Assembly: GCA_025917655.1 (NCBI GenBank)
Contig: CP084617.1
Span: forward strand, 1,364,001 to 1,428,000
Length of the DNA: 64,000 nucleotides
Source of the DNA: Chlorella sorokiniana
Lineage: Eukaryota; Chlorophyta; Trebouxiophyceae; Chlorellales; Chlorellaceae
Direction: 5' to 3'
In this document: in pieces, positions 36,618 to 58,641 of the stretch
How positions within the stretch are numbered: the first letter of the stretch is position 1
How the letters are laid out: each line of letters begins with the position of its first letter
Position numbers and translations under genes: made by a program
Notes under the pieces: model-generated
Seen by the model: only the letters and a program-made list of their open reading frames with translations
Databases searched by the model: none
Told to the model about the DNA's origin: nothing

Positions 36618-39600
36618 GCGGCGTTGCGCGAGAGCCATGGCGGTGCCGCTGCGAGTGGTTGGCCGAGTGATGTGTGCCTGGGGAGGAACCGGTCGGAGGC
36701 CATCCCAACCAACCTGCCCATGGCCGTGGGTGCGAAGTCACGCATGAACCACCGCAAGGGAGCATCGCGGCGTTGCGCGAGAGCCATGGCGGTGCCGCTG
36801 CGAGTTGTTGGCCGAGTGATGTGTGCCTGGGGAGGAGCCGATCGGATGCCATCGCAACCAACCTGCCCATGGCCGTGGGTGCGAAGCCACGCATGAACCA
36901 CCACAAGGGAGCATCGCGGCGTTGCGCGAGAGCCATGGCGGTGCTGCTGCGAGTGGTTGGCCTAGTGATGTGTGCCTGGGGAGGATCCGGTCGGAGGCCA
37001 TCCCAGCCAACCTGCCCATGGCCACAAGTTGCAAAGTCACGCATGAACCATCGCAAGGGAGCATCGCGGCGTTGCGCGAGAGCCATGGCGGTGCTGCTGC
37101 GAGTGGTTGGCCGAGTGATGTGTGCCCGGGAGGATCCGGGCGGATGCCATCCCAACCAACCTGCCCATGGCGGTGGGTGCGAAGCCACGCATGAACCACC
37201 ACAAGGGAGCATCGCGGCGTTGCGCGAGAGCCATGGCGGTGCTGCTGCGAGTGGTTGGCCTAGTGATGTGTGCCTGGGGAGGATCCGGTCGGAGGCCATC
37301 CCAGCCAACCTGCCCATGGCCACAAGTTGCAAAGTCACGCATGAACCATCGCAAGGGAGCATCGCGGCGTTGCGCGAGAGCCATGGCGGTGTCGCTGCGA
37401 GTTGTTGGCCGAGTGATGTGTGCCTTGGGAGGAGCCGATCGGATGCCATCGCAACCAACCTGCCCATGGCCGTGGGTGCGAAGTCACGCATGAACCACCA
37501 CAAGGGAGCATCGCGGCGTTGCGCGAGAGCCATGGCGGTGCCGCTGCGAGTGGTTGGCCGAGTGATGTGTGCCTGGGGAGGAGCCGATCGGATGCCATCG
37601 CAACCAACCTGCCCAAAGCCACAGGTTGCGAAGTCACGCATGAACCACCGCAAGGGAGCATCGCGGCGTTGAAGGAGAGCCATGGCGGTGCTGCTGCGAG
37701 TGGTTGGCCGAGTGATGTGTGCCTGGGGAGGAGCCGGTCGGATGCCATCCCAACCAACCTGCCCATGGCGGTGGGTGCGAAGTCACGCATGAACCACCGC
37801 AAGGGAGCATCGCGGCGTTGCGCGAGAGCCATGGCGGTGCTGCTGCGAGTGGTTGGCCTAGTGATGTGTGCCTGGGGAGGAACCGGTCTGAGGCCATCCC
37901 AGCCAACCTGCCCATGGCCACAAGTAGCAAAGTCACGCATGAACCACCACAAGGGAGCATCGCGGCGTTGCGCGAGAGCCATGGCGGTGCCGCTGCGAGT
38001 TGTTGGCCGAGTGATGTGTGCCTGGGGAGGAGCCGATCGGATGCCATCGCAACCAACCTGCCCATGGCCGTGGGTGCGAAGCCACGCATGAACCACCACA
38101 AGGGAGCATCGCGGCGTTGCGCGAGAGCCATGGCGGTGCTGCTGCGAGTGGTTGGCCTAGTGATGTGTGCCTGGGGAGGATCCGGTCGGAGGCCATCCCA
38201 GCCAACCTGCCCATGGCCACAAGTTGCAAAGTCACGCATGAACCATCGCAAGGGAGCATCGCGGCGTTGCGCGAGAGCCATGGCGGTGCTGCTGCGAGTG
38301 GTTGGCCGAGTGATGTGTGCCCGGGAGGATCCGGGCGGATGCCATCCCAACCAACCTGCCCATGGCGGTGGGTGCGAAGCCACGCATGAACCACCACAAG
38401 GGAGCATCGCGGCGTTGCGCGAGAGCCATGGCGGTGCTGCTGCGAGTGGTTGGCCTAGTGATGTGTGCCTGGGGAGGATCCGGTCGGAGGCCATCCCAGC
38501 CAACCTGCCCATGGCCACAAGTTGCAAAGTCACGCATGAACCATCGCAAGGGAGCATCGCGGCGTTGCGCGAGAGCCATGGCGGTGTCGCTGCGAGTTGT
38601 TGGCCGAGTGATGTGTGCCTTGGGAGGAGCCGATCGGATGCCATCGCAACCAACCTGCCCATGGCCGTGGGTGCGAAGTCACGCATGAACCACCACAAGG
38701 GAGCATCGCGGCGTTGCGCGAGAGCCATGGCGGTGCCGCTGCGAGTGGTTGGCCGAGTGATGTGTGCCTGGGGAGGAGCCGATCGGATGCCATCGCAACC
38801 AACCTGCCCAAAGCCACAGGTTGCGAAGTCACGCATGAACCACCGCAAGGGAGCATCGCGGCGTTGAAGGAGAGCCATGGCGGTGCTGCTGCGAGTGGTT
38901 GGCCGAGTGATGTGTGCCTGGGGAGGAGCCGGTCGGATGCCATCCCAACCAACCTGCCCATGGCGGTGGGTGCGAAGTCACGCATGAACCACCGCAAGGG
39001 AGCATCGCGGCGTTGCGCGAGAGCCATGGCGGTGCTGCTGCGAGTGGTTGGCCTAGTGATGTGTGCCTGGGGAGGAACCGGTCTGAGGCCATCCCAGCCA
39101 ACCTGCCCATGGCCACAAGTAGCAAAGTCACGCATGAACCATCGCAAGGGAGCATCGCGGCGTTGCGCGAGAGCCATGGCGGTGCCGCTGCGAGTGGTTG
39201 GCCTAGTGATGTGTGCCTGGGGAGGAACCGGTCGGAGGCCATCCCAGCCAACCTGCCCATGGCCACAAGTTGCAAAGTCACGCATGAACCATCGCAAGGG
39301 AGCATCGCGGCGTTGCGCGAGAGCCATGGCGGTGCCGCTGCGAGTTGTTGGCCGAGTGATGTGTGCCTTGGGAGGAGCCGATCGGATGCCATCGCAACCA
39401 ACCTGCCCATGGCGGTGGGTGCGAAGCCACGCATGAACCACCACAAGGGAGCATCGCGGCGTTGCGCGAGAGCCATGGCGGTGCTGCTGCGAGTGGTTGG
39501 CCTAGTGATGTGTGCCTGGGGAGGATCCGGTCGGAGGCCATCCCAGCCAACCTGCCCATGGCCACAAGTTGCAAAGTCACGCATGAACCATCGCAAGGGA

Positions 39601-42600
39601 GCATCGCGGCGTTGCGCGAGAGCCATGGCGGTGCTGCTGCGAGTTGTTGGCCGAGTGATGTGTGCCCGGGAGGATCCGGGCGGATGCCATCCCAACCAAC
39701 CTGCCCATGGCCGTGGGTGCGAAGCCACGCATGAACCACCACAAGGGAGCATCGCGGCGTTGCGCGAGAGCCATGGCGGTGCTGCTGCGAGTGGTTGGCC
39801 TAGTGATGTGTGCCTGGGGAGGATCCGGTCGGATGCCATCGCAACCAACCTGCCCAAAGCCACAGGTTGCGAAGTCACGCATGAACCACCGCAAGGGAGC
39901 ATCGCGGCGTTGAAGGAGAGCCATGGCGGTGCTGCTGCGAGTGGTTGGCCGAGTGATGTGTGCCCGGGAGGATCCGGGCGGATGCCATCCCAACCAACCT
40001 GCCCATGGCGGTGGGTGCGAAGCCACGCATGAACCACCACAAGGGAGCATCGCGGCGTTGCGCGAGAGCCATGGCGGTGCTGCTGCGAGTGGTTGGCCTA
40101 GTGATGTGTGCCTGGGGAGGATCCGGTCGGAGGCCATCCCAGCCAACCTGCCCATGGCCACAAGTTGCAAAGTCACGCATGAACCATCGCAAGGGAGCAT
40201 CGCGGCGTTGCGCGAGAGCCATGGCGGTGTCGCTGCGAGTTGTTGGCCGAGTGATGTGTGCCTTGGGAGGAGCCGATCGGATGCCATCGCAACCAACCTG
40301 CCCATGGCCGTGGGTGCGAAGTCACGCATGAACCACCACAAGGGAGCATCGCGGCGTTGCGCGAGAGCCATGGCGGTGCCGCTGCGAGTGGTTGGCCGAG
40401 TGATGTGTGCCTGGGGAGGAGCCGATCGGATGCCATCGCAACCAACCTGCCCAAAGCCACAGGTTGCGAAGTCACGCATGAACCACCGCAAGGGAGCATC
40501 GCGGCGTTGAAGGAGAGCCATGGCGGTGCTGCTGCGAGTGGTTGGCCGAGTGATGTGTGCCTGGGGAGGAGCCGGTCGGATGCCATCCCAACCAACCTGC
40601 CCATGGCGGTGGGTGCGAAGTCACGCATGAACCACCGCAAGGGAGCATCGCGGCGTTGCGCGAGAGCCATGGCGGTGCTGCTGCGAGTGGTTGGCCTAGT
40701 GATGTGTGCCTGGGGAGGAACCGGTCTGAGGCCATCCCAGCCAACCTGCCCATGGCCACAAGTAGCAAAGTCACGCATGAACCATCGCAAGGGAGCATCG
40801 CGGCGTTGCGCGAGAGCCATGGCGGTGCCGCTGCGAGTTGTTGGCCGAGTGATGTGTGCCTGGGGAGGAGCCGATCGGATGCCATCGCAACCAACCTGCC
40901 CATGGCGGTGGGTGCGAAGTCACGCATGAACCACCGCAAGGGAGCATCGCGGCGTTGCGCGAGAGCCATGGCGGTGCTGCTGCGAGTGGTTGGCCTAGTG
41001 ATGTGTGCCTGGGGAGGAACCGGTCTGAGGCCATCCCAGCCAACCTGCCCATGGCCACAAGTAGCAAAGTCACGCATGAACCACCACAAGGGAGCATCGC
41101 GGCGTTGCGCGAGAGCCATGGCGGTGCCGCTGCGAGTTGTTGGCCGAGTGATGTGTGCCTGGGGAGGAGCCGATCGGATGCCATCGCAACCAACCTGCCC
41201 ATGGCCGTGGGTGCGAAGCCACGCATGAACCACCACAAGGGAGCATCGCGGCGTTGCGCGAGAGCCATGGCGGTGCTGCTGCGAGTGGTTGGCCTAGTGA
41301 TGTGTGCCTGGGGAGGATCCGGTCGGAGGCCATCCCAGCCAACCTGCCCATGGCCACAAGTTGCAAAGTCACGCATGAACCATCGCAAGGGAGCATCGCG
41401 GCGTTGCGCGAGAGCCATGGCGGTGCTGCTGCGAGTGGTTGGCCGAGTGATGTGTGCCCGGGGAGGATCCGGGCGGATGCCATCCCAACCAACCTGCCCA
41501 TGGCGGTGGGTGCGAAGCCACGCATGAACCACCACAAGGGAGCATCGCGGCGTTGCGCGAGAGCCATGGCGGTGCTGCTGCGAGTGGTTGGCCGAGTGAT
41601 GTGTGCCCGGGAGGATCCGGGCGGATGCCATCCCAACCAACCTGCCCATGGCGGTGGGTGCGAAGCCACGCATGACCACCACAAGGGAGCATCGCGGCGT
41701 TGCGCGAGAGCCATGGCGGTGCTGCTGCGAGTGGTTGGCCTAGTGATGTGTGCCTGGGGAGGATCCGGTCGGAGGCCATCCCAGCCAACCTGCCCATGGC
41801 CACAAGTTGCAAAGTCACGCATGAACCATCGCAAGGGAGCATCGCGGCGTTGCGCGAGAGCCATGGCGGTGTCGCTGCGAGTTGTTGGCCGAGTGATGTG
41901 TGCCTTGGGAGGAGCCGATCGGATGCCATCGCAACCAACCTGCCCATGGCCGTGGGTGCGAAGTCACGCATGAACCACCACAAGGGAGCATCGCGGCGTT
42001 GCGCGAGAGCCATGGCGGTGCCGCTGCGAGTGGTTGGCCGAGTGATGTGTGCCTGGGGAGGAGCCGATCGGATGCCATCGCAACCAACCTGCCCAAAGCC
42101 ACAGGTTGCGAAGTCACGCATGAACCACCGCAAGGGAGCATCGCGGCGTTGAAGGAGAGCCATGGCGGTGCTGCTGCGAGTGGTTGGCCGAGTGATGTGT
42201 GCCTGGGGAGGAGCCGGTCGGATGCCATCCCAACCAACCTGCCCATGGCGGTGGGTGCGAAGTCACGCATGAACCACCGCAAGGGAGCATCGCGGCGTTG
42301 CGCGAGAGCCATGGCGGTGCTGCTGCGAGTGGTTGGCCTAGTGATGTGTGCCTGGGGAGGAACCGGTCTGAGGCCATCCCAGCCAACCTGCCCATGGCCA
42401 CAAGTAGCAAAGTCACGCATGAACCATCGCAAGGGAGCATCGCGGCGTTGCGCGAGAGCCATGGCGGTGCCGCTGCGAGTGGTTGGCCTAGTGATGTGTG
42501 CCTGGGGAGGAACCGGTCGGAGGCCATCCCAGCCAACCTGCCCATGGCCACAAGTTGCAAAGTCACGCATGAACCATCGCAAGGGAGCATCGCGGCGTTG

Positions 42601-44920
42601 CGCGAGAGCCATGGCGGTGCCGCTGCGAGTGGTTGGCCTAGTGATGTGTGCCTGGGGAGGAACCGGTCTGAGGCCATCCCAGCCAACCTGCCCATGGCCA
42701 CAAGTAGCAAAGTCACGCATGAACCATCGCAAGGGAGCATCGCGGCGTTGCGCGAGAGCCATGGCGGTGCCGCTGCGAGTGGTTGGCCTAGTGATGTGTG
42801 CCTGGGGAGGAACCGGTCGGAGGCCATCCCAGCCAACCTGCCCATGGCCACAAGTTGCAAAGTCACGCATGAACCATCGCAAGGGAGCATCGCGGCGTTG
42901 CGCGAGAGCCATGGCGGTGCTGCTGCGAGTGGTTGGCCTAGTGATGTGTGCCTGGGGAGGATCCGGTCGGAGGCCATCCCAGCCAACCTGCCCATGGCCA
43001 CAAGTTGCAAAGTCACGCATGAACCATCGCAAGGGAGCATCGCGGCGTTGCGCGAGAGCCATGGCGGTGCCGCTGCGAGTGGTTGGCCGAGTGATGTGTG
43101 CCTGGGGAGGAGCCGGGCGGATGCCATCCCAACCAACCTGCCCATGGCCGTGGGTGCGAAGCCACGCATGAACCACCACAAGGGAGCATCGCGGCGTTGC
43201 GCGAGAGCCATGGCGGTGCTGCTGCGAGTGGTTGGCCGAGTGATGTGTGCCTGGGGAGGAGCCGGTCAGATGCCATCCCAACCAACCTGCCCATGGCGGT
43301 GGGTGCGAAGTCACGCATGAACCACCACAAGGGAGCATCGCGGCGTTGCGCGAGAGCCATGGCGGTGCCGCTGCGAGTGGTTGGCCGAGTGATGTGTGCC
43401 TGGGGAGGAACCGGTCGGTTGCCATCCCAACCAACCTGCCCATGGCCGTGGGTGCGAAGCCACGCTTGAACCACCGCAAGGGAGCATCGCGGCGTTGCGC
43501 GAGAGCCATGGCGGTGCCGTTGCGAGTGGTTGGCCTAGTGATGTGTGCCTGGGGAGGAGCCGGTCGGAGGCCATCCCAGCCAACCTGCCCATGGCCACAA
43601 GTTGCAAAGCCACGCATGAACCATCGCAAGGGAGCATCGCGGCGTTGCGCGAGAGCCATGGCTGTGCTGCTGCGAGTGGTTGGCCGAGTGATGTGTGCCT
43701 GGGGAGGAACCGGTCGGTTGCCATCCCAACCAACCTGCCCATGGCCGTGGGTGCAAAGCCACGCTTGAACCATCGCAAGGGAGCATCGCGGCGTTGCGCG
43801 AGAGCCATGGCTGTGCTGCTGCGAGTGGTTGGCCGAGTGATGTGTGCCTGGGGAGGATCCGGTCGGAGGCCATCCCAACCAACCTGCCCATGGCCGTAGG
43901 TGCGAAGCCACGCATGAACCACCACAAGGGAGCATCGCGGCGTTGCGCGAGAGCCATGGCGGTGCTGCTGCGAGTGATTGGCCGAGTGATGTGTGCCTGG
44001 GGAGGAGCCGGTCAGATGCCATCCCAACCAACCTGCCCATGGCGGTGGGTGCGAAGCCTCGCATGAACCACCTCAAGGGAGCATCGCGGCGTTCCGCGAG
44101 AGCCATGGCGGTGCTGCTGCGAGTGATTGGCCGAGTGATGTGTGCCTGGGGAGGAGCCGGTCAGATGCCATCCCAACCAACCTGCCCATGGCGGTGGGTG
44201 CGAAGTCACGCATGAACCACCACAAGGGAGCATCGCGGCGTTGCGCGAGAGCCATGGCTGTGCTGCTGCGAGTGGTTGGCCGAGTGATGTGTGCCAGGGG
44301 AGGAGCCGGTCGGATGCCATCCCAACCAACCTGCCCATGGCGGTGGGCGCGAAGCCACGCATGAACCACCGCAAGGGAGCATCGCGGCGTTGCGCGAGAG
44401 CCATGGCGGTGCTGCTGCGAGTGGTTGGCCGAGTGATGTGTGCCTGGGGAGGATCCGGTCGGATGCCATCCCAACCAACCTGCCCATGGCCGTGGGTGCA
44501 AAGTCACGCATGAACCACCGCAAGGGAGCATCGCGGCGTTGCGCGAGAGCCATGGCTGTGCTGCTGCGAGTGGTTGGCCGAGTGATGTGTGCCAGGGGAG
44601 GAGCCGGTCGGATGCCATCCCAACCAACCTGCCCATGGCCGTGGGTGCGAAGCCTCGCATGAACCACCTCAAGGCATCGCGGCGTTGCGCGAGAGCCATG
44701 GCTGTGCTGCTGCGAGTGGTTGGCCGAGTGATGTGTGCCAGGGGAGGAGCCGGTCGGATGCCATCCCAACCAACCTGCCCATGGCGGTGGGCGCGAAGCC
44801 ACGCATGAACCATCGCAAGGGAGCATCGCGGCGTTGCGCGAGAGCCATGGCGGTGCTGCTGCGAGTGGTTGGCCGAGTGATGTGTGCCTGGGGAGGAACC
44901 GGTCGGATGCCATCCCAACC
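36618..44920. repeat. Satellite array: about 55 units of 149/150 bp with higher-order structure
   Basis: The word GAGCCATGG recurs at 36632, 36781, 36930 and so on to 44842. Two unit types exist: 149 bp (with GCCGTGGGTGCGAAG or GCGGTGGGTGCGAAG) and 150 bp (with GCCACAAGTTGCAAAG or GTAGCAAAG). Units are roughly 90-99 percent alike. A diagnostic variant with GTTGAAGG in place of GTTGCGCG sits near 37670, 38865, 39910, 40508 and 42150; the blocks before it share the same order of variants, giving higher-order repeats of about 1,195 bp (8 units) and 1,642 bp (11 units). Units right of about 43,100 are more diverged and lack that order, as expected at an array edge. The unit holds two CCATGG sites and few stop codons on either strand. 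No host protein family was recognised in it. Confidence 0.97.
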
Positions 44921-46193
44921 TGTTAAGATGTGACTGAGCCACTTGTCCAGCCTGCACACCCGCAGCACATCTCCCCAGCTGCCACGTGGCAGGCGCTGCT
45001 GACGTGGACACATTTTCGTCATGCATGAGCCCAACTTAGCTAATACGCCCAGACACCCTTCGATTATGCTTCCCCACTTTATTCTAAGTTGATCGACACA
45101 AACGCCATGCATTTCTGTGCACCTGAGCCCCGCCGTTATTCCTCTGGCCACCCTGGATACCACCACTTCGGACACCACTCCGCAAATGCCGGAATAATGC
45201 CAAAAGCAGCATTGTTCTGCTCCAGCATACTTAGCGCCATTCTGCGCCCTTTTCCATACTCTTGCGCACTTTGTAACTGCCTCCATCCAACAGGTTATGG
45301 GCCCCAGCTCCCTCCTCTGCCCTTGAGTCCGGCACACGCTCTTGCCGTCACCCCAGACGCCTTTTCTCGCTGCCAGCGCCCGAGCACCACACGCGAGCAC
45401 TTCCGCCTCGACCTCCGGAACGGCGCTTTCAGACCGAAGCCTCTCAGACCAAGCCCGCCTTTGCTTGCGGCATATTTCGCGCATAGCAGCGCCTTTTCGC
45501 TCGCACAGCGCCGCCTTTCGCTCGCACAGCCAGCGCCTTTTGCTGCATAGCTGCCAGCCTGCAGCCGGCAGCATAATTCTGCTTTCCGGCAGCCTAAATC
45601 TGCATTCGACAGCACCTGCTTGCAAAGAGACAGCTGCTTGAGCAGCTGTGTAGCAGCCGACAGCGAGTAAGCGAGTTGGGTCACTTGTGACCAGCTCGAT
45701 ACCCCGCCTCCCGCCAAGTTACTAAACTTCCACTTTGCCTCAACCCACTGCCGTAGCTCTACGCTGACACAACCACTTAAGATAAGTGCAAGCAGCGCCC
45801 TAGCGCCTCCGTGCGCCGTTGCTCCGCCCCTCTGGCCCCTCCGTTATTGGCGGTGCCCCAGCGCCTAAGTGCGCCGCTGCCTTTGCCCCCGGGCACTCTC
45901 CTTTTGGCAGTGCCCTAGCGCCGTCGAGCGCCGCTGCCATCCACATCTGTCCTGCCCCCCTTTCCCGTCTATTCCTCCACTTCTCCTACATTTACTCAAA
46001 GGTGGTGCACGGGCTGTGCTGTCCTCGTGTGGCACGCAGCTCCCCGTTCGGTGCCTGGCCTCGTGTGCCACGTACCGGCTACTTATTCTTAGGCACCGAC
46101 CTTCCCCACCTTTCCGCCAGCCATCTCCGGCGGCACAATCTGCGGCACACCTTGCCGCGGCACCTCCGAGCACGCACTAGCAGAGGCACAAGG
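44921..46193 (+). mobile_element. Ty1/copia relic: one LTR plus leader only
   Basis: Same family as the copia at 48368. The LTR runs 44921-45292 (TGTTAAGATG ... CCATCCAACA), followed by the primer site GGTTATGGGCCCCAGC at 45293 and the long leader up to AGGCACAAGG at 46193. No coding part remains; a LINE poly-A end follows directly. The left end abuts the last satellite unit. It is the oldest-looking of the three copies here by divergence. Confidence 0.85.
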
Positions 46194-46519
46194 TTTTTTT
46201 TTTTTTTTTTTTTTTGAGGGGTGCTCTTACACTTGAGACGTGGGGATCTCAAGAAGCGTAGGTAGGCCGAAGCCACGAAGCATCATGACCGATGAGGCAG
46301 CCAAACAGCAGCGCGAACGCGCATGTGTGACAAGATGGGGCATGCAGTCACGGGGGTGGTACGCATTTTTTTTTTTCTTTTTGTTTTGTGTGTGTATGTG
46401 TGTTCGGTATGTCGCTGTGAAAGCAGATGAAACGCGAGATCCCGGCAACCGCCAGACTGGGGCAGGCAGCGGCACAACGGGGCAAGGCAAAGAACTGAAA
46501 GACCCGAGGCGAGGATGGA
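46194..46519 (-). mobile_element. LINE 3' end with poly-A tail (copy A)
   Basis: On the minus strand the element ends in A22 (46194-46215). A TGTAA word (TTACA on plus, 46227-46231) lies 12 bases before the tail, the chlorophyte poly-A signal. The 3' UTR is nearly identical to copies B (54585) and C (55484). It is cut at 46519 by the short LTR element. Confidence 0.8.
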
Positions 46520-47833
46520 TGTTGAGATGAAGGCGCTCAAGTAGGGCTGGAGGTTACAAGAGGAGGCTGCCCATGAGAAAAGCTGAAAGAAAAGGATGGA
46601 ATGGTAGCGAATGGGGCGAGAGGCCTATTAAGTAGGCCGCCAGGTAGAAAGTCAAAGCATGCACAGCCTATTTGGTGAGCCCGTAGTGAGCCCCTACACA
46701 GGGATTAGGTAAGCCTCTGGTGAGCCCACACACTAGGATTAGGTGAGCAATGGAAGCTTCTGGAAGGAAGTCCGTAGAAGCTTCGAGAGGGTTCGAGAAG
46801 CTTCTAGAAGCGGACGCACGAAGTGTGTAGAAGCTTCCGGAATGTTCTGGAAGTTTCTGGAAGCTTGTAGAAGAACGCACGGGGAAGCTTCTAGAACGTT
46901 CCAAAGAGGTCGCTAGATGAAAGGCAGGCAAGTAGCGGACTGGACAAGCTTATTTAACAATCTCCCACGCAGCCGATGCTTCGCCCGCCGTATGGTGACT
47001 TGTCTTCATACTCGGCCCTCGGGGTAGTCGCGGGTAGGCCAGTGATTATGGATGTTGAGATGTCCATCCCGAGTCCCTTGCTTCCGGATCGCTCTTCATG
47101 CGTGGGCACGATGTCGCTTAAGGTTGTAGTGCCGTTGCCAGGCCCAGTTGCCTTTGAACTCGAACAGCTTGTCCTTAAGGTCCATGTTTTGAGACTCCAG
47201 CTCATCAATCCGTTTGCGAAGTTCAATGAGCTGCTTGTTGTCCCGTCGCTTCAGTATGTACTGCTTGAGCTTGGAGTTTTCTTGCTGTATATCTGCCATG
47301 TCTTTGTCGCTCGTTGTATAGCTCTCTTGTTTTTGCTGCCAGGCTGCGTATGAGGTGCTGCTCCCTTTGTTCGTCCAAAGCTGGTCGTTTGGCTGGTGGC
47401 TGAGCGGCGGGGGCGTGCAAAGTCAGCGCTGCGTTTATTAGCTCCAGCTGTCGTTTGCTGAAAAGCCATTCAGCTGGTATGAGTGCTGGGTTTGTAGCAG
47501 CCGGGTTGGTGCCGACTCTGGGCACAGTCTGTGGATTGCGCTCGCCATAGTAGCGTGGTGGGTCATGTTTGGGTAGCTTGGACTTGGGCTTCATGACACA
47601 GATCTGGGTTCTGGTCACTTTGAAGAATGGAGGAAATGGTGTACGAAGTGGCGAGGTGCCTCCTTTTATGTGTTGAGATGAAGGCGCTCAAGTAGGGCTG
47701 GAGGTTACAAGAGGAGGCTGCCCATGAGAAAAGCTGAAAGAAAAGGATGGAATGGTTGCGAATGGGGGCGAGAGGCCTAATAAGTAGGCCGCCAGGTAGA
47801 AAGTAGTAGCGGACTGGACAAGCTTATTTAACA
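46520..47833 (-). mobile_element. Short LTR element with heat-shock-element LTR and a coiled-coil reading frame
   Basis: Two terminal repeats share their ends (on plus TGTTGAGATGAAGGCGCTCA and CAAGCTTATTTAACA): 46520-46960 (441 bp) and 47671-47833 (163 bp). On the minus strand a purine-rich GTGGGAGAT lies just before TGTTAAATAAGC at 46960, the usual copia polypurine-tract context, so the 3' LTR is 46520-46960. The 710-bp interior has no gag, protease, integrase or reverse transcriptase. It encodes on minus a basic segment (MTRTQICVMKPKSKLPKHDP) and then a strong heptad coiled coil (LIELRKRIDELESQNMDLKD). It could be a non-autonomous derivative of a copia element. No matching 5-bp target repeat was found. 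Looks incomplete. Confidence 0.6.
46752..46903. promoter_or_regulatory. Heat-shock-element arrays in the 441-bp LTR
   Basis: The HSE consensus is alternating GAA and TTC every five bases. From 46830 to 46872 nine such units follow in register, eight of them perfect. A second run at 46884-46901 has four perfect units, and three-unit HSEs occur at 46753-46765 and 46797-46809. The pattern is the one bound by heat shock factor trimers. Confidence 0.75.
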
Positions 47834-48367
47834 TTATGGCCTGGCCTGGAGAACTTTCTAGAGATCCACGTCATCATTCGAAGTTTCCAGAATGTTCGCC
47901 TCAGAAGTTTCTAGATGGATGAGTTCGAGGTCCAGAACTTTCTGGAAGTTTCTCGAAGTATCTAGAAATATCGCGAAAGAAGCTTCGGAAGCTTCTAGCT
48001 GGTTCTTCAGGCGGTGCTTGGAGATGATGCCCATCGCTTGTCGGCAGAATTCCAGCTTGCTGAGCGGTAGTGGCTTCGTTAATGCGTCGGCAACCATCTT
48101 GTCGGTTGACACGTAGTCGAAATTCACGTCCTTGCGGGTGACGCGCTCACGTGCGAAGTGATGGATGACGTCTATGTGCTTGGATCTCATTGTGAACACT
48201 GGATTCTTGAGCAACTTGATTGCGCTCTGATTGTCGGCCTTGATGTGGACGGTGTGTATCTCCATGCCCAGATTGCTCAATAGAGTTCTTAGCCAAAGCG
48301 CCTCCTTGATTGCGTAGGCTGCCGCCATGTACTCGGCTTCAGTTGTCGAGGCTGCAACTGTTGGCTG
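47834..48367 (-). mobile_element. 3' part of a second, diverged Ty1/copia element (RNase H end)
   Basis: On the minus strand, from the right edge down to about 47990, it encodes the RNase H C-terminal part: VAASTTEAEYMAAAYAIKEA, SKHIDVIHHFARERVTRKDV and MVADALTKPLPLSKLEFCRQ. It resembles the plus-strand copia but differs at many residues and has lower GC, so it is another family. The following 150 bases hold more heat-shock-element runs (47880-47897 and 47935-47967). The plus-strand copia at 48368 interrupts it. Broken. Confidence 0.8.
47880..47967. promoter_or_regulatory. Second heat-shock-element cluster
   Basis: GAA/TTC units at five-base steps: four perfect at 47880-47897, and six of seven at 47935-47967. 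It lies between the RNase H end of the diverged copia and the 163-bp terminal repeat. Confidence 0.65.
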
Positions 48368-48721
48368 TGTTGAGATGTGGCTGAGCCACATGTCCAGCCT
48401 GCACACCCGCAAAGACATCTCCCCAGCTGCCACGTGGCAGACGCCGCCGACGTGGACACCCTTTCGTCATGCATGAGCTTGACCCGCCTAATATGCTCAG
48501 ACACCCTTCGATTATGCTTTCCCACTTTATTCTAAGTTGATTGACCCCCATGCCATGCATTTCTGTGCACCTGAGCCCCGCCGTCATGCCACTACCACAA
48601 ACACTACCCCGCATATGCCGGAATAATGCCAATAGTAGCATTGTGCTGCTCCAGCCTATTTAGCGCCATTCTGCGCCCTCTTTCATACTCTTGCGCCCTT
48701 TGTAACTACCTCCATCCAACA
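48368..48721 (+). repeat. 5' LTR of copia copy 1
   Basis: 354 bp, TG...CA, matching 53776-54130 and 60100-60452. Confidence 0.9.
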
Positions 48722-48737
48722 GGTTATGGGCCCCAGC
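48722..48737 (+). promoter_or_regulatory. Primer binding site matching the initiator tRNA-Met anticodon arm
   Basis: GGTTATGGGCCCCAGC directly after the LTR. Its complement corresponds to the anticodon stem-loop of eukaryotic initiator tRNA-Met (GCTGGGCCCATAACC), with one extra C, not to the tRNA 3' end. Drosophila copia is known to prime from a half-molecule of this tRNA. Confidence 0.7.
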
Positions 48738-49688
48738 TCCCTCCTCTGCCCTTGAGTCCGGCACACGCTCTTGCCGTCACCCCAGACGCCTTTTCTCGCT
48801 GCCAGCGCCCGAGCACCACACGCGAGCACTTCCGCCTCGACCTCCGGACCGGCGCCTACAGACCGAAGCCTCTCAGACTAAGCCCGCCTTTGCTTGCGGC
48901 ATATTTCGCGCATAGCAGCGCCTTTTCGCTCGCACAGCGCCGCCTTTCGCTCGCACAGCCAGCGCCTTTTGCTGCGTAGCTGCCAGCCTGCAGCCGGCAG
49001 CATAATTCTGCTTTCCGGCAGCCTAAATCTGCTTTCGACAGCACCTGCTTGCAAAGAGACAGCTGCTTGAGCAGCTGTGTAGCAGCCGACAGCCAGTAAG
49101 CGAGTTGGGTCACTTGTGACCAGCTCGATACCCCGCCTCCCGCCAAGTTACTAAACTTCCACTTTGCCTCAACCCACTGCCGTAGCTCTACGCTGACACA
49201 ACCACTTAAGATAAGTTCAAGCAGCGCCCTAGCGCCTCCGTGCGCCGTTGCTCCGCCCCTCTGGCCCCTCTGTTATTGGCAGTGCCCCAGCGCCTAAGTG
49301 CGCCGCTGCCTTGCCCCCCCTGGGCACTCTCCTTTTGGCAGTGCCCTAGCGCCGTCGAGCGCCGCTGCCATCCACATCTGTCCTGCCCCCCCCCCTTTCC
49401 CGTCTATTCCTCCACTTCTGTTACATTTACTCAAAGGTGGTGCCTGGGCTGTGCTGTCCACGTGTGGCACGCAGCTCCCCCGTTCGGTGCCTGGCCTCGT
49501 GTGCCACGTACCGGCTACTTATTCTTAGGCACCGACCTTCCCCACCTTTCCGCCAGCCATCTCCGGCGGCACAATCTGCGGCACCCTTTGCCGCGGCACC
49601 TCCGAGCACGCACTAGCAGAGGCACAAGGTGCCTGCTAGCGGCCGCCAGCCGTCAACAGTCAGCAGTTTGCACACAAGCGTGGACAAC

Positions 49689-52600
49689 ATGGCGACCGAC
49701 GGCATGTCCATTGAGCGGCTGGACTGGGACAACTACCCAGCGTGGGCAGCAAACATGAAGTTCTTCCTCACCACCAAGAAGTGCTGGCACACCGTCGTCA
49801 GCACCGAGGCCCCGACCACTCCCGAGGACATCAAGGCAGACGAGCTCGCCCTCTCCTACATCGGCCTCCTCGTGAAGCCCCACCACCAGCCAACCATCTT
49901 GCGCTGCACCACCGCCAACCAAGCCTGGACCACTCTGCAAGGCATCTTCGCCGCCAAGTCCTTCGCACGCAAGCTCCAACTGCGCCGTGAGCTCAACTCC
50001 CTGAAGATGGCCTCCACCGAGACTGTCACCGCCTTCACCAACCGTGCCAAGGCCCCGCAAGACCAGCTCAACGCCGCCGGCCACAAGGTCGAAGACATCG
50101 ACGTGGCGTGCCAAGTCCTGGCTGGCCTGCCCTCCACCTTCGACACCGTCGTCACCGTCATCGAGACCACCACCGCCTCCGCCGGCACATTCACCGTGGA
50201 TGACATCCTTCCCCACCTGCTGCAAGCTGAGCAACGCCGCGCCAAGCCCGACGTCATCCGCAGCTCCGACTCAGCCCTGATGGCCTCCTTCCATCCTCGC
50301 CGCGACGACCGGCACTCCAACAGCAATGGCGCTCCCGCAACATCAACGGCATCAACCGCAGCAACGGCCCTCGTGGCAGTGGCCCCCGCAGCAGCAACCC
50401 CCGCATGCGGCCGCCCAACTTCAACGGTCCACCGCCCAGCTTTGGCCCACCACGCACCTTCGGCATCCGCGTCGACGAGCGCTCCTCCCGCGATGCCCGC
50501 GCCTACGCCGAAGGCACCTGCCTCTACTGCCACAAGCCTGGCCACTACGCCCATGAGTGCAACAAGAAGCGCCGCGACATGGAAGCCCGCCGCTTCAACC
50601 AACGCCCGCCGCCTTCCAACCGCAGCGTCAACGCCCAGTACAGCGCCATCGCCTTCACCGCCGCCACCACCTCCAACACCATCAGCGACAACTGGATCGT
50701 GGACACTGGAGCGAGCCGGCACATCACACCACACCAGCAACTCCTCACCAACCTGCGCCCGGCGCCGCAGCCCATCCGCATCACTTTCGGCAACGGCAGC
50801 GTCGGAGAGGCCACCCTCATCAGCGACGCGTACCTGCAGCCCAACCCAGACAACCTGATCAAGCTCACCGATGTGCTCTACATGCCCGACGCCGCCGACA
50901 ACCTCCTGTCCGTCAACCGAGCCACCCAGAAAGGCATCAGCTTCTCCTTTGACCGCACCGGCTACCAGATCTCCATGGGCAACCACATGATTGCCTACGG
51001 CTACACCGACGCCACCAGCAACACCTACCACCTGGCCAGCCGCTGCCTCGAGCCAGGCTCCGCCGCCTACGCCCTCACCATCGCCTACGCGCACGCGCCG
51101 ACACACCCAACCTGTGGCACCGCCGCCTCGGCCACCTCGGCTACGACAACCTGGCCAAGCTCACCACCATGGCCACCGGCATCAGCATCGACCCCTCCGA
51201 CTTCAAAGCCACCAGCGCAGACACCTGCGACGCCTGCACCCTGGGCAAGCAACATCGCCAACCGTTCAACGCCTCCACCTCCTTCAACCACAAGCCTCTG
51301 GAGCTGCTGCACACCGACCTCTGCGGTCCCATGCCAGTCCCCTCCCACGGTGGCAGCCTGTACTTCATGACCATCCTGGATGACTACACTGGCTACTCAC
51401 ATCGCTCCCTTGCGCCGCAAGTCTGACGCCGCTGACTTCCCGAAGACCACCATCAACCTGCTGGAGCGTCAAACCGGCCACACCGTCAAGCGCATCCGCT
51501 CTGACAACGGCGGCGAGTTCATCAACAACGACCTGGACACCTTCTACAAGTCCAAGGGCATTCAGTCAGAGACCACCGTCGCCTACACGCCCCAGCAGAA
51601 CGGCAAGGCCGAGCGCCTCAACCGCACCCTGCTGGACAAGGCGCGCCCCATGCTGGCCGAGTACAACCTGCCCAAGTTCTTATGGGCAGAAGCCATCGCC
51701 ACCGCCAACTACTTGCGCAACCGCTCTCCAACATCTGCCCAAGACGTCACCCCCTACGAGATGCTCCACGGCACCAAGCCTGACCTCTCCCACCTGCGCA
51801 TCTTTGGCGCCCGTGCCTACGCCCACATTCCAACAGCGCTTCGCTCCAAGCTCGATGCAGTCAGCGAGCCCGGCCGCTTCATTGGCTACCCGACCAACAC
51901 CAAGGGCTACAAGATCCTACTGGACAACGGCTCCATCGTCATCAGCCGCGATGTCACCTTCAATGAGACCAGCTCTAACCTGCCCAAGACCAGTTTGCCC
52001 AAGCCCAACCTGCCAGAAACCATCTCCCTCATCGACAACGATGACACCGGCGACACCGAGTCCGTGGGAGCACCAGCCGAGCCTGAAGACCCACCTTCTC
52101 CTCCCATCGCCCTGCGGCGCACCGAGCGTGCCGCTGCGCGCCGCCCAGCCAGCCAGTGGCAGGATGACGCATACCGCATCATAGCTCGAGCCACCGCCAA
52201 CGTCGCCACCACGACCACTGAGCCTACCACCCTGGAGGAAGCCCTGCAATCTCCCAACGCCGACCTTTGGCGCTCCGCCATGGACGAGGAGATCGCTTCC
52301 TTGGCCGCCAACAACACCTGGACCCTGCAGCCTACACCTCCTGGCATCAAGCCCATTCCACTCAAGTGGGTCTACAAGGAGAAGCGCGACGCCAACGGCA
52401 ACATCGAGCGCTACAAGGCCCGCCTCGTCGTCAAAGGCTTCCACCAACGCGAAGGCATCGACTACGACCAAGTGTTTGCTCCTGTCTCCAAGTACTCCAC
52501 CCTGCGCACCGTGTTGGCCATTGCTGCCGACCTGGACCTGGAGATCCACCAGCTCGACATCAAGACCGCCTTCCTCAACGGCAAGCTGGACGAAGACGTC

Positions 52601-53746
52601 TACATTCAGCAACCTCCTGGCTACCACAACGGCAACCACGACCAAGCCTGCAAGCTGAACAAGGCCCTCTATGGACTCAAGCAAGCTTCTCGAGCCTGGC
52701 ATCGCACCCTGAAGACCGAGATCGAGTCCATGGGCTTCACCGAGTCAGCTGCTGACCCAGGCCTCTTCATCAAGCCTTCCTCTCCACCAGTCTACCTGCT
52801 CATCTACGTCGACGACATTCTGGTCATCACCGCCGACACATCCATGCTGACCTCCATCAAGGACCAGATCGCCACCGCCTTCGACACCCGCGACCTGGGC
52901 CCAGCCTCCTTCTTCCTAGGCATCGACATCATGCGAGACCGTGCCGCCAAGACCATCAAGCTGACCCAGACCCGTCACACCACCGACCTGCTGTCCAAGT
53001 TCAGCATGGACAAGTCCAAGCCTTTCGACACACCCTCAAGCATCGCCTTCAAGCTCACCGCCGACGGCGACCCGCTGGACATCTCAGAGCACCCCTACTC
53101 CACACTCATCGGCTCCCTCATGTACCTGGCATCCTGCACCAGACCCGACATCGCCCAAGCCGTGGGAGCGCTGGCCCGCTACATGTCCAAGCCCACCACC
53201 TCCCACTGGACCACAGCCAAGCATGTGCTGCGCTACCTCGCTGGCACCCCTGACTACGGCATCGTCTTCAGCCCATCCAACTCTACCCTCGACGCCTACT
53301 GCGACGCCAACCATGCTGGCGACATCGACACCCGCCGCTCCACCACCGGCTACGTCTTCACCTTCAAGAACGGCGCCATCACCTGGAGCTCACGCCTGCA
53401 ACCCACCGTCGCCGCATCTACTACAGAAGCTGAGTACATGGCAGCCGCCTCCGCCGTCAAGGAAGCAACGTGGCTGCGCAAGCTCTTCGCTGACCTGGAC
53501 CTGCACATCGCCCGCATCGACATCAAGTCAGACAGCCAATCAGCCATTCACATGCTGAAGAATCCAGTCATCTCCCTTCGCTCCAAGCACATCGACATCA
53601 TCCACCACTTTGCACGCGAGCGCGTCATCCGTGGCGAAGTCAACTTCAGCTACATCCCCACCGATGCCATGGTTGCTGACATCCTGACCAAGCCCGTGCC
53701 CACCAACAAGTTCAAGTACTGCCGCGCAGCTATGGGCATCGCCTGA
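49689..53746 (+). pseudogene. gag-pol region of copia copy 1
   Basis: Encodes a UBN2-type gag, zinc knuckle, aspartic protease, integrase, reverse transcriptase and RNase H in the copia order. Codons end strongly in C or G. Most of pol is open; treated as a fossil because of about two or three breaks. Confidence 0.85.
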
Positions 53747-53775
53747 GTGCAGCGGCTGTGCAGCCTGCGTGGGAG

Positions 53776-54130
53776 TGTTGAGATGTGGCTGAGCCACATG
53801 TCCAGCCTGCACACCCGCGGCACATCTCCCCAGCTGCCACGTGGCGCAGACGCCGCTGACGTGGACACCCTTTCGTCATGCATGAGCTTGACCCGCCTAA
53901 TATGCTCAGACACCCTTCGATTATGCTTTCCCACTTTATTCTAAGTTGATTGACCCCCATGCCATGCATTTCTGTGCACCTGAGCCCCGCCGTCATGCCA
54001 CTACCACAAACACTACCCCGCATATGCCGGAATAATGCCAATAGTAGCATTGTGCTGCTCCAGCCTATTTAGCGCCATTCTGCGCCCTCTTTCATACTCT
54101 TGCGCCCTTTGTAACTACCTCCATCCAACA
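53776..54130 (+). repeat. 3' LTR of copia copy 1
   Basis: 355 bp; preceded by a short purine-rich GCGTGGGAG. Differs from the 5' LTR at only about five positions. Confidence 0.9.
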
Positions 54131-54367
54131 CCAAAGCTCACCTAATCCTGGTGTAGGGGCTCACCAGAGGCTTACCTAATCCTGGTGTAGGGGCTCACTA
54201 GGGGCTCACCAAATAGTGCTGTGCATGCTTTGACTTTCTACCTGGCGGCCTACTTAATAGGCCTCTCGCCCCCATTCGCAACCATTCCATCCTTTTCTTT
54301 CAGCTTTTCTCATGGGCAGCCTCCTCCTGTAACCTCCAGCCCTACTTGAGCGCCTTCCATCTCTACA
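54131..54367 (+). mobile_element. LTR fragment of the heat-shock-element family, inverted
   Basis: Reverse complement of the first part of the LTR at 46520: it ends GAGCGCCTTCCATCTCTACA at 54367 and carries the same block with CTTACCTAATCCTGGTGTAG duplicated. The heat-shock-element part is absent. Broken. Confidence 0.75.
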
Positions 54368-54584
54368 GGTGCCATCCAGCCGGCGCATGTTGTGCGTGGC
54401 CCGCGCCCAGTCCCGCTTGATGGCAGCCAGCACCGCTGCTACCGTGGCACCGCACACGCTGGCCGGCGAGATGGGCTGGCCCGCAAGAGTTCGCCGGCCG
54501 CGCATCTGCCACACTGATCCCGTCAATTTCCCGCACAACAAGGCGTGAGAGGAGGGGGAAGACCCGGGGCAGCCCAGGAAGAAG
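54368..54584 (-). other. Short unassigned repeat-derived segment
   Basis: Minus-strand open reading with VAAVLAAIKRDWARATHNMR. I do not recognise it; it is wedged between an LTR fragment and a LINE tail and is probably part of another element. Confidence 0.35.
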
Positions 54585-55479
54585 TTTTTTTTTTTTTTTT
54601 TTTTTTGAGGGGGGTGCTCTTACACTTGAGACGTGGGGGATCTCAAGAAGCGTAGGTAGGCCGAAGCCACGAAGCATCATGACCGATGAGGCAGCCAAAC
54701 AGCAGCGCGAACGCGCATGTGACAGCAAGATGGGGCATGCAGTCACGGGGTGGTACGCGGATTTTTTTTCTTTTTGTTTTGTGTGTGTGTGTGTGTTCGG
54801 TATGTCGCTGTGAAGGCAGATGAAACGCGAGATCCCGGCAACCGCCAGACTGGGGCAGGCAGCGGCACAACAGGGCAAGGCAAAGAACTGAAAGACCCGA
54901 GGCGAGGATGGAGCAACCCACCAGGGAAGAGACGCAAAGGCAACCAGGCCAAGACAAAAAACAGGGGGGCGACTTGGGACAGGGAGAAGGGGGCGTCCAG
55001 GAGGGGGCAGGCTAAGAAAAGGAGGGGAGCCATGGAAAGGGAAGGTGCAAGCCACTCAGAAAGGGGCGAGGAAATCGAGTGTGGAAGCGTCTTTGGAGGG
55101 AGCCATGGGAACAGGGATAAGTCAACGCAGGAGCCGAGCGCGGGGGAACCGTCAGCCAATGGATGCAAAGAGCAAGGACGGGGCAAGCCGAGGGCTGGCG
55201 GGCACACGACTACCGACAGCAAGGGCATGTACGCGCTCCGCAGGTGTGCTGCCGGCCCGCTAGGACCGGCGGCGCGGGTGCCGCAAGGCAAGCCGGGCGG
55301 GGGCGGCGGACCCCGCCGGCACGTTGCCACACACGGTGGCGAACGCCCATCACCCGCCGCGCCACTACACACGCACCTGCCGCCATCGCCGCTGCCGCTG
55401 CCGGCCGCCCAACTGCCGCCGCCGCAAGAATGGAAGGAGCCCCAGCAGCCGCGCATGTAAAGATGAACAGAAGTCAGGC

Positions 55480-55483
<4 letters not shown>
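54585..55483 (-). mobile_element. LINE 3' end with poly-A tail (copy B)
   Basis: Minus-strand A22 tail (54585-54606), TGTAA word at 54620-54624 (TTACA on plus), then a 3' UTR almost identical to copy C for about 870 bases. Its 5' side stops exactly where copy C's tail begins (55484), so it is 5'-truncated, which is usual for LINEs. Confidence 0.8.
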
Positions 55484-55516
<33 letters not shown>

Positions 55517-56630
55517 GGTGCTCTTACACTTGAGACGTGGGGGATCTCAAGAAGCGTAGGTAGGCCGAAGCCACGAAGCATCATGACCGATGAGGCAGCC
55601 AAACAGCAGCGCGAACGCGCATGTGACAGCAAGATGGGGCATGCAATCACGGGGGTGGTACGCAGATTTTTTTCTTTTTGTTTTGTGTGTGTATGTGTGT
55701 TCGGTATGTCGCTGTGAAAGCAGATGAAACGCGAGATCCCGGCAACCGCCAGACTGGGGCAGGCAGCGGCACAACAGGGCAAGGCAAAGAACTGAAAGAC
55801 CCGAGGCGAGGACGGAGCAACCCACCACGGAAGAGACGCAAAGGCAACCAGGCCAAGACAAAAAAAAAGGGGGGGGCGACTTGGGACGGGGAGAAGGGGG
55901 CGTCCGGGGAGGGGGCAGGCTAAGAAAAGGAGGGGAGCCATGGAAAGGGAAGGTGCAAGCCACTCAGAAAGGGGCGAGGAAATCGAGTGTGGAAGCGTCT
56001 TTGGAGGGAGCCATGGGAACAGGGACAAGGCAACGCAGAGCCGAGCGCTGGGGAACCGTCAGCCAATGGATGCAAAGAGCAAGGACGGGGCAAGCCGAGG
56101 GCTGGCGGGCACACGACTACCGACAGCAAGGGCATGTACGCGCTCCGCAGGTGTGCTGCCGGCCCGCTAGGACCGGCGGCGCGGGTGCCGCAAGGCAAGC
56201 CGGGCGGGGGCGGCGGGACCCCGCCGGCACGTTGTCACACACGGTGGCGAACGCCCATCACCCGCCGCGCCACTACACACGCACTAGCCGCCATCGCGCC
56301 GCTGCCGCTGCCGGCCGCCCAACCGCCGCCGCCCGCAAGAATGGAAGGAGCCCCAGCAGCGCGCATGTAAAGATGAACAGAAGTCAGGCTGTTTCGCATG
56401 GCCCAAAAGGGAGTGGAAGCAGCACGGTCGAGTATAAAAATAACAAGAAGGCCGCCGAGGCCGTGGGAAAGCGCCCGCAAAGAAGAGGAGGGCCCCAGCC
56501 AGAAAAGGGCAGGGCGGAGAGTTAACCGACGCCCGCGCGTGGTGCAGCCCGTGCCATTGCTGCCCGTGGCACAACCCCTTGCCCCTTTGCCTTCCCATGA
56601 GAGCTCTGGCCACACTCAACCCTTGCCCGC
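55484..56630 (-). mobile_element. LINE 3' end with poly-A tail (copy C)
   Basis: Minus-strand A28 tail (55484-55511) and TGTAA word (TTACA at 55524-55528). Shares its 3' UTR with copy B to about 56395 and then extends further. It lies head to tail with copy B. The coding part of this lineage is probably the reverse transcriptase region further right (57088-59480). Confidence 0.75.
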
Positions 56631-56639
56631 AAACAAACC

Positions 56640-57087
56640 ACCCATCCATTCGCAACCGAATGAGGTCAGCACTGCGCGCCCCAGTCCTTTGATGGGCCCT
56701 TCACCGCAGCGAGGTGCGAGCTGCCGTCCCCCCGCCTGAAACGGCGAGCCGCCGTGACAGGCTTTGAGCAGGTTGACATCCCGAAGGGGGATGTGACGCA
56801 TTAATGCCTGCCGTCGCCTTGGCACGATGTCGGTCCTCTTTGTGAGTGCTATCACTCCCATATTCAAGGCCGGTGATCCGCTGGAGCCTGGCAACTACTG
56901 GGGCATGATGTTATGTTACACGTGTTTAACGTCGCCTTCGGGACAATCACTGTCCCTCGCAGACGGGGCATAGGGCCCATGCAACTCAGACGCAAAACGG
57001 GCCCATCCCTGTTGCAGCCGAAGCCAACAGACAGGAACGGGCTGGCCCTCGAAACCGGGAACTCATCAGGCCGGCAGCGCACGGGAG
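56640..57087 (+). mobile_element. Inverted LINE fragment
   Basis: The plus strand reads AITPIFKAGDPLEPGNYWG near 56845-56905, the conserved start of a LINE reverse transcriptase. The preceding 110 bases (56700-56810) repeat, in the same orientation, the sequence at 59460-59560. Opposite in strand to the LINE around it, so it is a separate insertion or inversion. Confidence 0.6.
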
Positions 57088-58287
57088 TCAAAGCCCGGGC
57101 CCGCGCACCCCCATCGCGACGAGGTGAAGATGCAAGATGCAGCAAGCACACGGGATGGCAAGCAAGCACGCAAGCAAAGCATGATGACAAGGATGCAAAG
57201 CAAGGCAAACTGTGAAAGAGTCAGAAAAGGCAAGGAAGAATCCAACGCAAGCCGGGCACGGGCTGGTAGGGGCCGCGAGAACGGCGACGTAGGCCCACTC
57301 AAGCCGGGGTCGCCTCGCGGTGGGGCTGGGGCTCAGAATCGCCGCTGTGGGTGTCGTCTCCAGCCAACGACAGACGGTAGCAAAGTGGTGCACAAAGCTA
57401 GCCACCGCCACCGGATCCCGCGCAAGGAACCGTGCCAAGGTTCCCCGCCCCGCCAACGGACCGCCGGGCGGACGCCGACCGACCCCAAAAAGGGACTCAC
57501 GTAATCGGCTCGCAAGCGGGCATACTTTGGGCAGTCAAACACCATGTGATGCTCGTCCTCCATAGCACCCAACGAGCGGTGGGGGCAAATCCGGGCTGGG
57601 CCTGTCCAACCCCTCACGCCGCCCAGTCTCCACCCGCAACCAATGACAGCCCGTGCGGAACCTGGCAAGGCTGGCCATGCGCACACGGCTGTCAACCTCG
57701 GTCAGGTACGATTGCGGGCGACGGCAAGACGTATCACGCGTGAGCCCCCCTCACACTAGCGCAGTAAAAACGCACTTTGGGCTGGGATGGTGCTCCCTGC
57801 GGGACGCCCTCGACGTAGGCCTCGTCGCCGAGGCCGCACGCCTCGCCAACATCGACCCGGGCGGGGCTCCCCACCATCAAGGGGACCCAACCCCAGGCTG
57901 CGAAGGTATCCTACAACCTGGGCCCCCACGGCTGGCGGGCCACCCCACCCGCCCCCACCGTGCGCCCGCAAAAGATCCAACTGCTCAAAGAGTGCCCATT
58001 TGGTGACGCGCGCATCCGGAAGGCCCACCACTGTTCCGAAACGGGTCACCGCCTTGCCCTGAGTGGCAAGGGGGTAAAACCCCGCCTCGGCCAACACCAC
58101 AAGAGCGGGAGTGCTTTGCGGTAGGCGCCCCATCGCGTGCCGCAAGAACGAGCGCAAGAGCCGCTCGGAAGCATTCTCCCCGCCCCCGCAAGAACTGCGC
58201 GCGCCCACACCTCGCGGCCGTACGACACCACAGCAACACCAAAGCCTGGAAAAGCCGCCTTTGCAACCCAAAGTCAGACGTGCCAAT
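57088..58287 (-). mobile_element. LINE reverse transcriptase C-terminal region and zinc finger
   Basis: Minus strand, continuing from the right of the TRIM: TSDFGLQRRLFQALVLLWC, LLRSFLRHAMGRLPQSTPAL, FGTVVGLPDARVTKWALFEQ, then the C-terminal Cys/His finger CPHRSLGAMEDEHHMVFDCP at 57528-57587 (CxxC...HH...C), typical of the end of LINE ORF2. Then VAVASFVHHFATVCRWLE near the end. Several frame changes; a dead copy. Confidence 0.75.
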
Positions 58288-58636: not shown

Positions 58637-58641
58637 CCAAT

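Follow-up and report, generated by a model that had tools for sequence, protein, structure and literature searches.

A copia retrotransposon family of Chlorella sorokiniana with heat shock element arrays in its LTR and a home at centromere-like loci

Does a copia retrotransposon of a green alga carry a heat-shock promoter of its own? The question arises from a stretch of 64,000 nucleotides of Chlorella sorokiniana DNA (hereafter the window; C12:1364001–1428000 of a 38.8-Mb genome in 15 contigs), in which GAA and TTC alternate in the manner of heat shock elements (HSEs), the sites of heat shock factor (HSF). ONSEN is the textbook heat-activated plant retrotransposon. Like the element described here, ONSEN/ATCOPIA78 of Arabidopsis thaliana is described as a copia LTR retrotransposon with an HSE in its promoter, and this HSE binds host HSFs and permits heat-induced expression (PMC5056178). 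Judged from sequence, the algal element is probably an independent ONSEN-like copia, with HSF as its promoter switch, centromere-like loci as its residence and two promoters of the heat-shock type.

The HSE array and the LTR that carries it

The element bearing the array and its intact neighbor comprise the following features of the window (loci compared elsewhere in the genome are numbered with the prefix L, contigs with C).

46520–46959, minus strand: LTR of the HSE-bearing copia family, 440 bp, TGTTAAATAAGC...CATCTCAACA, delimited by alignment boundaries
46753–46901, no strand assigned: HSE array in the LTR U3, from a unit scan
46624–46634, minus strand: TATA-like site TACTTAATAGG, about 120 bp downstream of the array, from alignment and sequence
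46554–46558, minus strand: TGTAA, about 35 nt before the LTR end, retained in diverged copies
46960–46970, minus strand: purine-rich stretch CTGCGTGGGAGA directly before the LTR, a candidate polypurine tract
48026–48367, minus strand: RNase H end of the HSE-copia pol, cut at 48367 by copia A
48367–54130, plus strand: copia A, a neighbor of a different copia family, with LTRs of 355 bp that are 98% identical

Runs of three (46753–46765), four (46792–46809), seven (46830–46862, the longest perfect run, with an extra GAA at 46870) and four units (46884–46901) make up the U3 array; with three or more nGAAn/nTTCn units alternating every 5 bp, each of them qualifies as an HSE. The first-pass annotation had described GAA/TTC alternation from 46830 to 46872 with eight of nine slots perfect, and the slots read exactly so (GAA at 46830, 46840, 46850 and 46860, TTC at 46835, 46845 and 46855, an empty slot at 46865, and GAA at 46870), seven of these units standing in an unbroken row. 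Its four-unit run at 46884–46901 is likewise exact; of the two three-unit HSEs it added, the one at 46753–46765 has three units and the one at 46792–46809 has four. With single empty slots allowed, the window copy has 23 in-register units and its nearest relatives have 24. The density had been called far beyond chance, and Markov shuffles, together with a reversed-pattern control (see below), agree: in 20,000 first-order Markov shuffles of a 301-bp block the longest run was of four units, reached twice, and 100 shuffles of the whole window gave seven three-unit runs in all and none longer. In IMG/VR, a six-unit HSE pattern matched 15 contigs.

The LTR had been placed at 46745–46905; its identity as an LTR stands, and its full extent is 46520–46959 on the minus strand. 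These boundaries derive from locus alignments, with a sharp edge at 46520 and the other near 46959. A genome search with 46660–46960 as query returned 34 matches, of which four (on C3, C4, C5 and C8) lie outside the locus comparisons; the alignment input was the surroundings of 29 loci (L006–L034, with L028, L031, L032 and L033 not spanning the array). The same termini recur in other copies, the first LTR bases differing in diverged ones, and a solo LTR of 163 bp, which has an internal deletion and a CATAA duplication, confirms them. Several copies continue into a primer-binding-site-like GGTTATGGGCCCC, and GGTTATGGGCCCC or GGTTACGGGCCCC follows many LTRs of the family; we take this motif to resemble the copia half-tRNA primer site (initiator tRNA-Met). 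In element sense, the array occupies LTR positions 59–208. The TATA-like site takes the form TATATAAG or CTTAATAGG, reading TATATAAG in diverged copies L025, L026, L029, L030 and L034. Near the LTR end, TGTAA presumably acts as the poly(A) signal, as it does in green algae. In L062, a copy on C4, GCGTGGGAGA precedes the 3' LTR.

Because a copia RNase H end lies just upstream in element sense, the array is assigned to the 3' LTR of a minus-strand copia, which copia A has cut off at 48367. The earlier assignment to copia therefore holds for the family, with the change that this minus-strand family is other than the window's intact copia. Membership of copia is evident from L062, where paired LTRs with TG...CA ends lie at sense 421–841 and 5896–6316 and a 364-aa frame matches Pfam RVT_2 (E=9.9e-16). 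RVT_2 frames on C4 are flanked by HSE-LTRs, and in one C4 copy a stop-free frame of 1,242 aa runs across the RVT_2 matches. The window's segment 47834–48367 is 99.4% identical to the C4 copies, and the RNase H end has 67.5% DNA identity to the matching region of copia A. Of the 120 best-listed relatives found for the RT/RNase H piece, those that carry a species name come from Chlorella vulgaris, Parachlorella kessleri and Micractinium conductrix.

An origin of the array within intact copia A was considered and rejected: the LTRs of that element lie at 48367–48721 and 53775–54130, and a scan of it for HSE runs of at least three units found none. Self-comparison of the window located another copia from 60099 and a truncated copia at 44921–46194, and the array falls outside the LTRs of all three other copias.

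Conservation of HSE units across copies

The alignment held 28 rows (the window, 25 loci and two second hits); units were counted in 24 rows, diversity was measured on ten hand-picked representatives and substitutions were tallied over 22 distinct copies. In-register units number from 12 to 24, with 23 or 24 in 15 of the 24 rows, so that a conservation check proposed at first pass, on units held in register between family copies, came out in favor of the array. Older copies have lost units, down to 12 in L034 and 16 in L023.

Constraint is concentrated on two positions of the unit. In the ten LTRs the mean pairwise difference was 0.044 at G and 0.047 at the first A, against 0.154 at the second A and 0.133 in the spacers; LTR positions 215–430, outside the array, gave 0.138. 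For G and first A vs. spacers, the permutation p was 0.0038 (10 representative LTRs). With CpG columns removed the values were 0.027 (G), 0.009 (first A), 0.125 (second A) and 0.103 (spacers). In other forms the test is weak: 4 of 44 non-CpG core columns varied vs. 15 of 55 in the spacers (p=0.038), for core vs. third base p was 0.072, and all unit columns differed from the spacers with p=0.10 (Fisher) or p=0.043 (rank test). The effect stems from C, G and T columns; for A columns, variation is higher in units (0.153) than in spacers (0.104). When the register was slid by one to four bases, the difference dropped or reversed. When 21 distinct copies were compared with L006, the key G/C was unchanged in 488 of their 497 unit cells; of 19 distinct base changes, 11 hit the tolerant third base. 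This retention of the key bases spans copies whose sequences have diverged by as much as about a quarter. Variation at the two key HSF bases is about threefold below that of the spacers and is free at the third base, the pattern to be expected of HSF sites; constraint is strongest on G (C), with the first A held equally in this small sample. Published accounts of HSF sites, as far as their available text goes, describe G as critical, give less weight to the other two positions and note that HSEs with gaps are common (PMC2871787, PMC7010933).

These patterns bear on whether the array is instead a minisatellite in decay, grown from a 10-bp palindromic motif (GAAGCTTCTA-like) by slippage or recombination and with no regulatory role. 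A higher period of 54 bp is indeed visible (four-unit runs at C2:3088312, 3088366 and 3088420), a GAAGCTTC core recurs, and the genome's perfect arrays are all confined to a single repeat family with its relatives. Against such an origin, spacer sequence changes both inside a copy and from one copy to another while G and the first A hold, the third unit base is as variable as the spacers, which slippage does not predict, and the array stands upstream of TATA-like sites at two separate places in the element. We consider a minisatellite origin quite unlikely.

A second HSE cluster before an accessory frame

The second of these places lies between pol and an accessory frame and involves three further features.

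47880–47957, no strand assigned: second HSE cluster, between the pol end and the accessory ORF
47671–47833, minus strand: solo mini-LTR of 163 bp (LTR positions 1–29 and 308–440), without the HSE array
47223–47594, minus strand: accessory ORF of the HSE-copia, ATG at 47594, frame-disrupted relative to C4 copies

This cluster, 1.1 kb from the array and absent from the first-pass annotation, has runs of four (47880–47897) and five units (47935–47957) in the window; three C4 copies each have three runs here, of 4, 5 and 4 units. In L062 sense coordinates, pol ends at 5139, the HSE runs (4, 5 and 4 units) start at 5154, 5193 and 5253, a CATAAAAGG TATA box follows at 5312, and an ATG at 5388 opens a 184-aa frame; L006, L008 and L009 have the same order and spacing. 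Altogether, the second HSE array precedes the accessory ORF in four copies, with an intact TATA box between them in three. Three C4 copies have CATAAAAGG intact and three have an open accessory frame of 184 aa; the window's frame is broken, and the mini-LTR, with CATAA direct repeats on both sides, splits the TATA box. As a 5-bp duplication around the solo mini-LTR, CATAA fits the short target-site duplication of a Ty1/copia element. The pol frame of L062 stops before the second cluster, whereas that of the window (ORF 48466..47858) runs on through it to 47858. Copies L012 and L014 are without the accessory part, since their RNase H lies only ~185 and ~115 bp, respectively, from the LTR.

We also considered whether the second cluster is another full LTR and rejected this, as only pieces of 37 bp (81%) and 21 bp (90%) align to the family LTR, both inside HSE stretches. 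About 95 bp align at 72% to the diverged LTRs of L025 and L026, and a common origin of the U3 array and the second cluster is possible.

Outside the genome record, the accessory protein has relatives of 227 aa (99%), 112 aa (identical) and 215 aa (64%), the first, at 99% identity over shared residues, being perhaps from the same or a sister strain. Pfam gave no match to the protein, and IMG/VR no confirmed relative. Structure prediction for the 227-aa relative yielded one long helix (residues 72–160, mostly pLDDT 80–95), the rest being of low confidence (mean 64.5, pTM 0.27).

The state of the window copy raises the alternative that the arrays are relics, heat-shock promoters of an ancestral element whose present copies are all silent or dead. 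That copy is cut by copia A, its accessory frame is broken and, of its TATA boxes, the LTR one is degenerate and the second-promoter one interrupted; by eye, the pol of L062 also seems to contain foreign poly-A/T pieces. Such a general demise is nonetheless highly improbable, given that the LTRs at C4:2267083, 2278305 and 2283780 have no base mismatches to each other and differ only by a 22-bp indel, that the 1,242-aa frame over RVT_2 is stop-free in one C4 copy and that the accessory frame is open in three. These C4 LTRs point to recent amplification, which tandem duplication could also explain.

On C2 (L022), a copia A LTR is inserted at the 3' edge of the HSE array. Together with the mini-LTR in the window's TATA box this makes two cases, and perhaps integration prefers open promoters.

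Genomic distribution, host genes and known systems

Perfect long HSEs of this genome are essentially a property of the HSE-LTR family. A five-unit pattern occurred at 77 places, all at loci of the family and its relatives (reversed control, 0); the same held for all 72 places of the four-unit pattern with GAA first (reversed control, 2) and all 55 with TTC first (reversed control, 1). The perfect four-unit HSEs, 127 in 38.8 Mb, thus all belong to the LTR family and its diverged relatives, the latter including copies on C3 (2.047 and 2.076 Mb), C6 and C10. The GAA-first count combines 50 places from the genome listing with 22 from fetched loci and the window (five each in L010 and the window, three each in L015 and L016, and two each in L008, L025 and L026); the TTC-first count combines 50 from the listing, four in the window and one in L025. 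Because the perfect long matches sit in transposons, strict motif scans for heat-shock genes in this genome would mostly return repeats.

The family and the other copia elements of the genome are also confined in position. All 89 RVT_2 matches fall within one span per contig on 11 of the 15 contigs, with none on C1, C11, C14 or C15, and these spans sum to ~363 kb of 38.8 Mb (added by hand). Of 34 HSE-LTR matches, 33 lie within ~25 kb of the RVT_2 spans and one, a 51-bp piece at C3:2960173, does not. One locus per chromosome, found here on 11 of 15 contigs, is the distribution of a centromere-specific retrotransposon, and the copia-rich loci look like centromeres. In C. sorokiniana NS4-2, copia-enriched loci are described as validated as centromeres by CENH3 ChIP-seq (PMC11005252).

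Within these loci, tandem HSE-copia copies with common LTRs recur at a 5.47-kb period at C4:2267083–2289550, an arrangement typical of recombination-driven arrays; one tandem interval is longer by approximately the length of copia A and holds a copia RT match. At C3:2.047–2.087 Mb, LTR copies L017–L020, L029 and L030 recur with an offset of ~28.6 kb, a large segmental duplication within one locus. In the window, a 142–150-bp satellite with nested 300-bp and longer higher-order repeats occupies ~36583–44920; its 115 matches are limited to C11, where they occupy one place, and to the copia loci of C4, C12 and C13, making it a candidate centromeric satellite of some chromosomes only.

Clustering at such loci might mean that the array binds another factor, such as a CENP-B-like or replication/recombination protein, for centromere function or targeting, the HSE match being incidental; the examined host chaperone loci, which are without perfect HSEs (see below), could be read likewise. 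For a targeting role this is difficult to reconcile with copia A, which resides at the same loci without an HSE run, so HSEs are not needed for residence there. In addition, the 5-bp alternation, the gapped units and the constraint on G and first A are traits of HSF sites, and both arrays precede promoter-like elements and are not spread along the locus. An incidental match of this kind is very unlikely.

A further possibility is that HSF loads onto many centromeres at once, so that heat switches on centromeric transcription and titrates HSF away from chaperone genes. Perfect four-unit arrays occur on seven contigs (C2, C3, C4, C6, C7, C10 and C12), not most, which lowers its odds, and we regard it as unlikely. 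If true, it would be an algal, retrotransposon-made counterpart of the nuclear stress bodies of human satellite III, and stress would be coupled to centromere chromatin and chromosome segregation. Human satellite III, in which heat shock induces HSF1-dependent transcription of repeats beside centromeres (PMC7889540), differs in being a satellite with non-coding RNA, not a retrotransposon promoter, and in lying beside the centromere, not in it.

For HSF as the switch of the element's own promoter, the reading we prefer, the host genome supplies a candidate partner: a single DNA-binding exon of HSF, with ...FKHNNFSSFVRQLNTY..., was found at C5:1574262. No perfect three-unit HSE was present at any of 30 host HSP70, HSP90, HSP20 and ClpB exon loci, several of which come from one gene and most of which are exon-centered, with promoters partly covered; this is the main caveat, and it holds our confidence at the level of probable. 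Among eight chaperone upstream stretches scored against shuffles, only that of a probable cytosolic HSP70 (C2:4.056 Mb) exceeded them, through an imperfect HSE that matches at 10 of 12 bases, a score attained by 2% of shuffles (for a longer upstream stretch, 11 of 15 bases, attained by 7%); the other tested stretches did not. With an imperfect HSE alone seen at these upstream stretches, a preference of the alga's HSF for perfect arrays cannot be taken for granted.

The ONSEN comparison made at first pass thus holds at the sequence level, on the strength of a copia LTR with conserved in-register HSEs, a TATA-like site downstream and a host HSF. On this reading, heat or other proteotoxic stress would trimerize the alga's HSF, several trimers would bind cooperatively along the array, and genomic RNA would then be transcribed from the LTR, along with an accessory mRNA in copies with an intact second promoter, so that the accessory protein may be co-induced. 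New copies would re-insert into centromere-like chromatin, with little harm to genes.

The green-algal element is presumably independent of ONSEN, from which it differs in having a second HSE array before an accessory ORF. We take its clustering at one locus per chromosome to be a further difference. Units number up to 24 here vs. the one HSE spoken of for ONSEN in the available text (PMC5056178). If this is an independent algal case, capture of an HSF switch by copia LTRs recurs, and the algal switch is the more extreme, with up to 24 units and a second promoter-like array at centromere-like loci. Two questions thereby become directly testable in a fast-growing unicell: does heat activate transcription at centromeres in organisms other than animals, and can an element link its spread to stress of the host yet insert only where it is safe?

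Dictyostelium centromeres are rich in DIRS-1. This element of Dictyostelium discoideum, whose inverted terminal repeats are reported to contain a heat-shock promoter (PMC2685390), resembles the algal family in its heat-shock terminal repeat and likely centromeric home and differs as a tyrosine-recombinase element, not a copia; common ancestry is not claimed. Copia-1_Chlorella_NS and Copia-2_Chlorella_SLA04 are copia elements likewise enriched in centromeres, those of Chlorella sp. SLA-04 being placed from dot plots (PMC11005252); in the available main text of that paper the word "heat" is absent and HSEs in Chlorella centromeric copias are unmentioned. The copia tRLC5 of Physcomitrium patens, at a single position per chromosome, differs in its reported expression in young sporophytes, and HSEs are unmentioned in the available text (PMC7466625). 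A literature search for HSE-bearing LTRs in algae found no paper, and one on Chlorella heat, retrotransposons and HSF surfaced, in the available text of its results, only diatom work.

Other repeats of the window include an array-free piece of the HSE-LTR.

54136–54367, plus strand: HSE-LTR fragment, LTR positions 213–441, without the array, from self-comparison and alignment

It is part of an arrangement at 53775–56392 (a copia A LTR, the HSE-LTR from position 213 and a shared repeat) that is also found on C2 near 3.093 Mb (L022, L027 and L028) and suggests exchange between centromere-like loci of different chromosomes. Rfam gave nothing at gathering score over 44000–64000. On the minus strand, 58579–59586 holds an ORF (FVDFKKAYDLVDRRLL...KQGCPLSPTLF) that by eye resembles a LINE reverse transcriptase fragment. 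A ~900-bp tandem pair (54585–56392, 96.8%) contains long A/T tracts, and a piece of it (46194–46519) adjoins the HSE-LTR.
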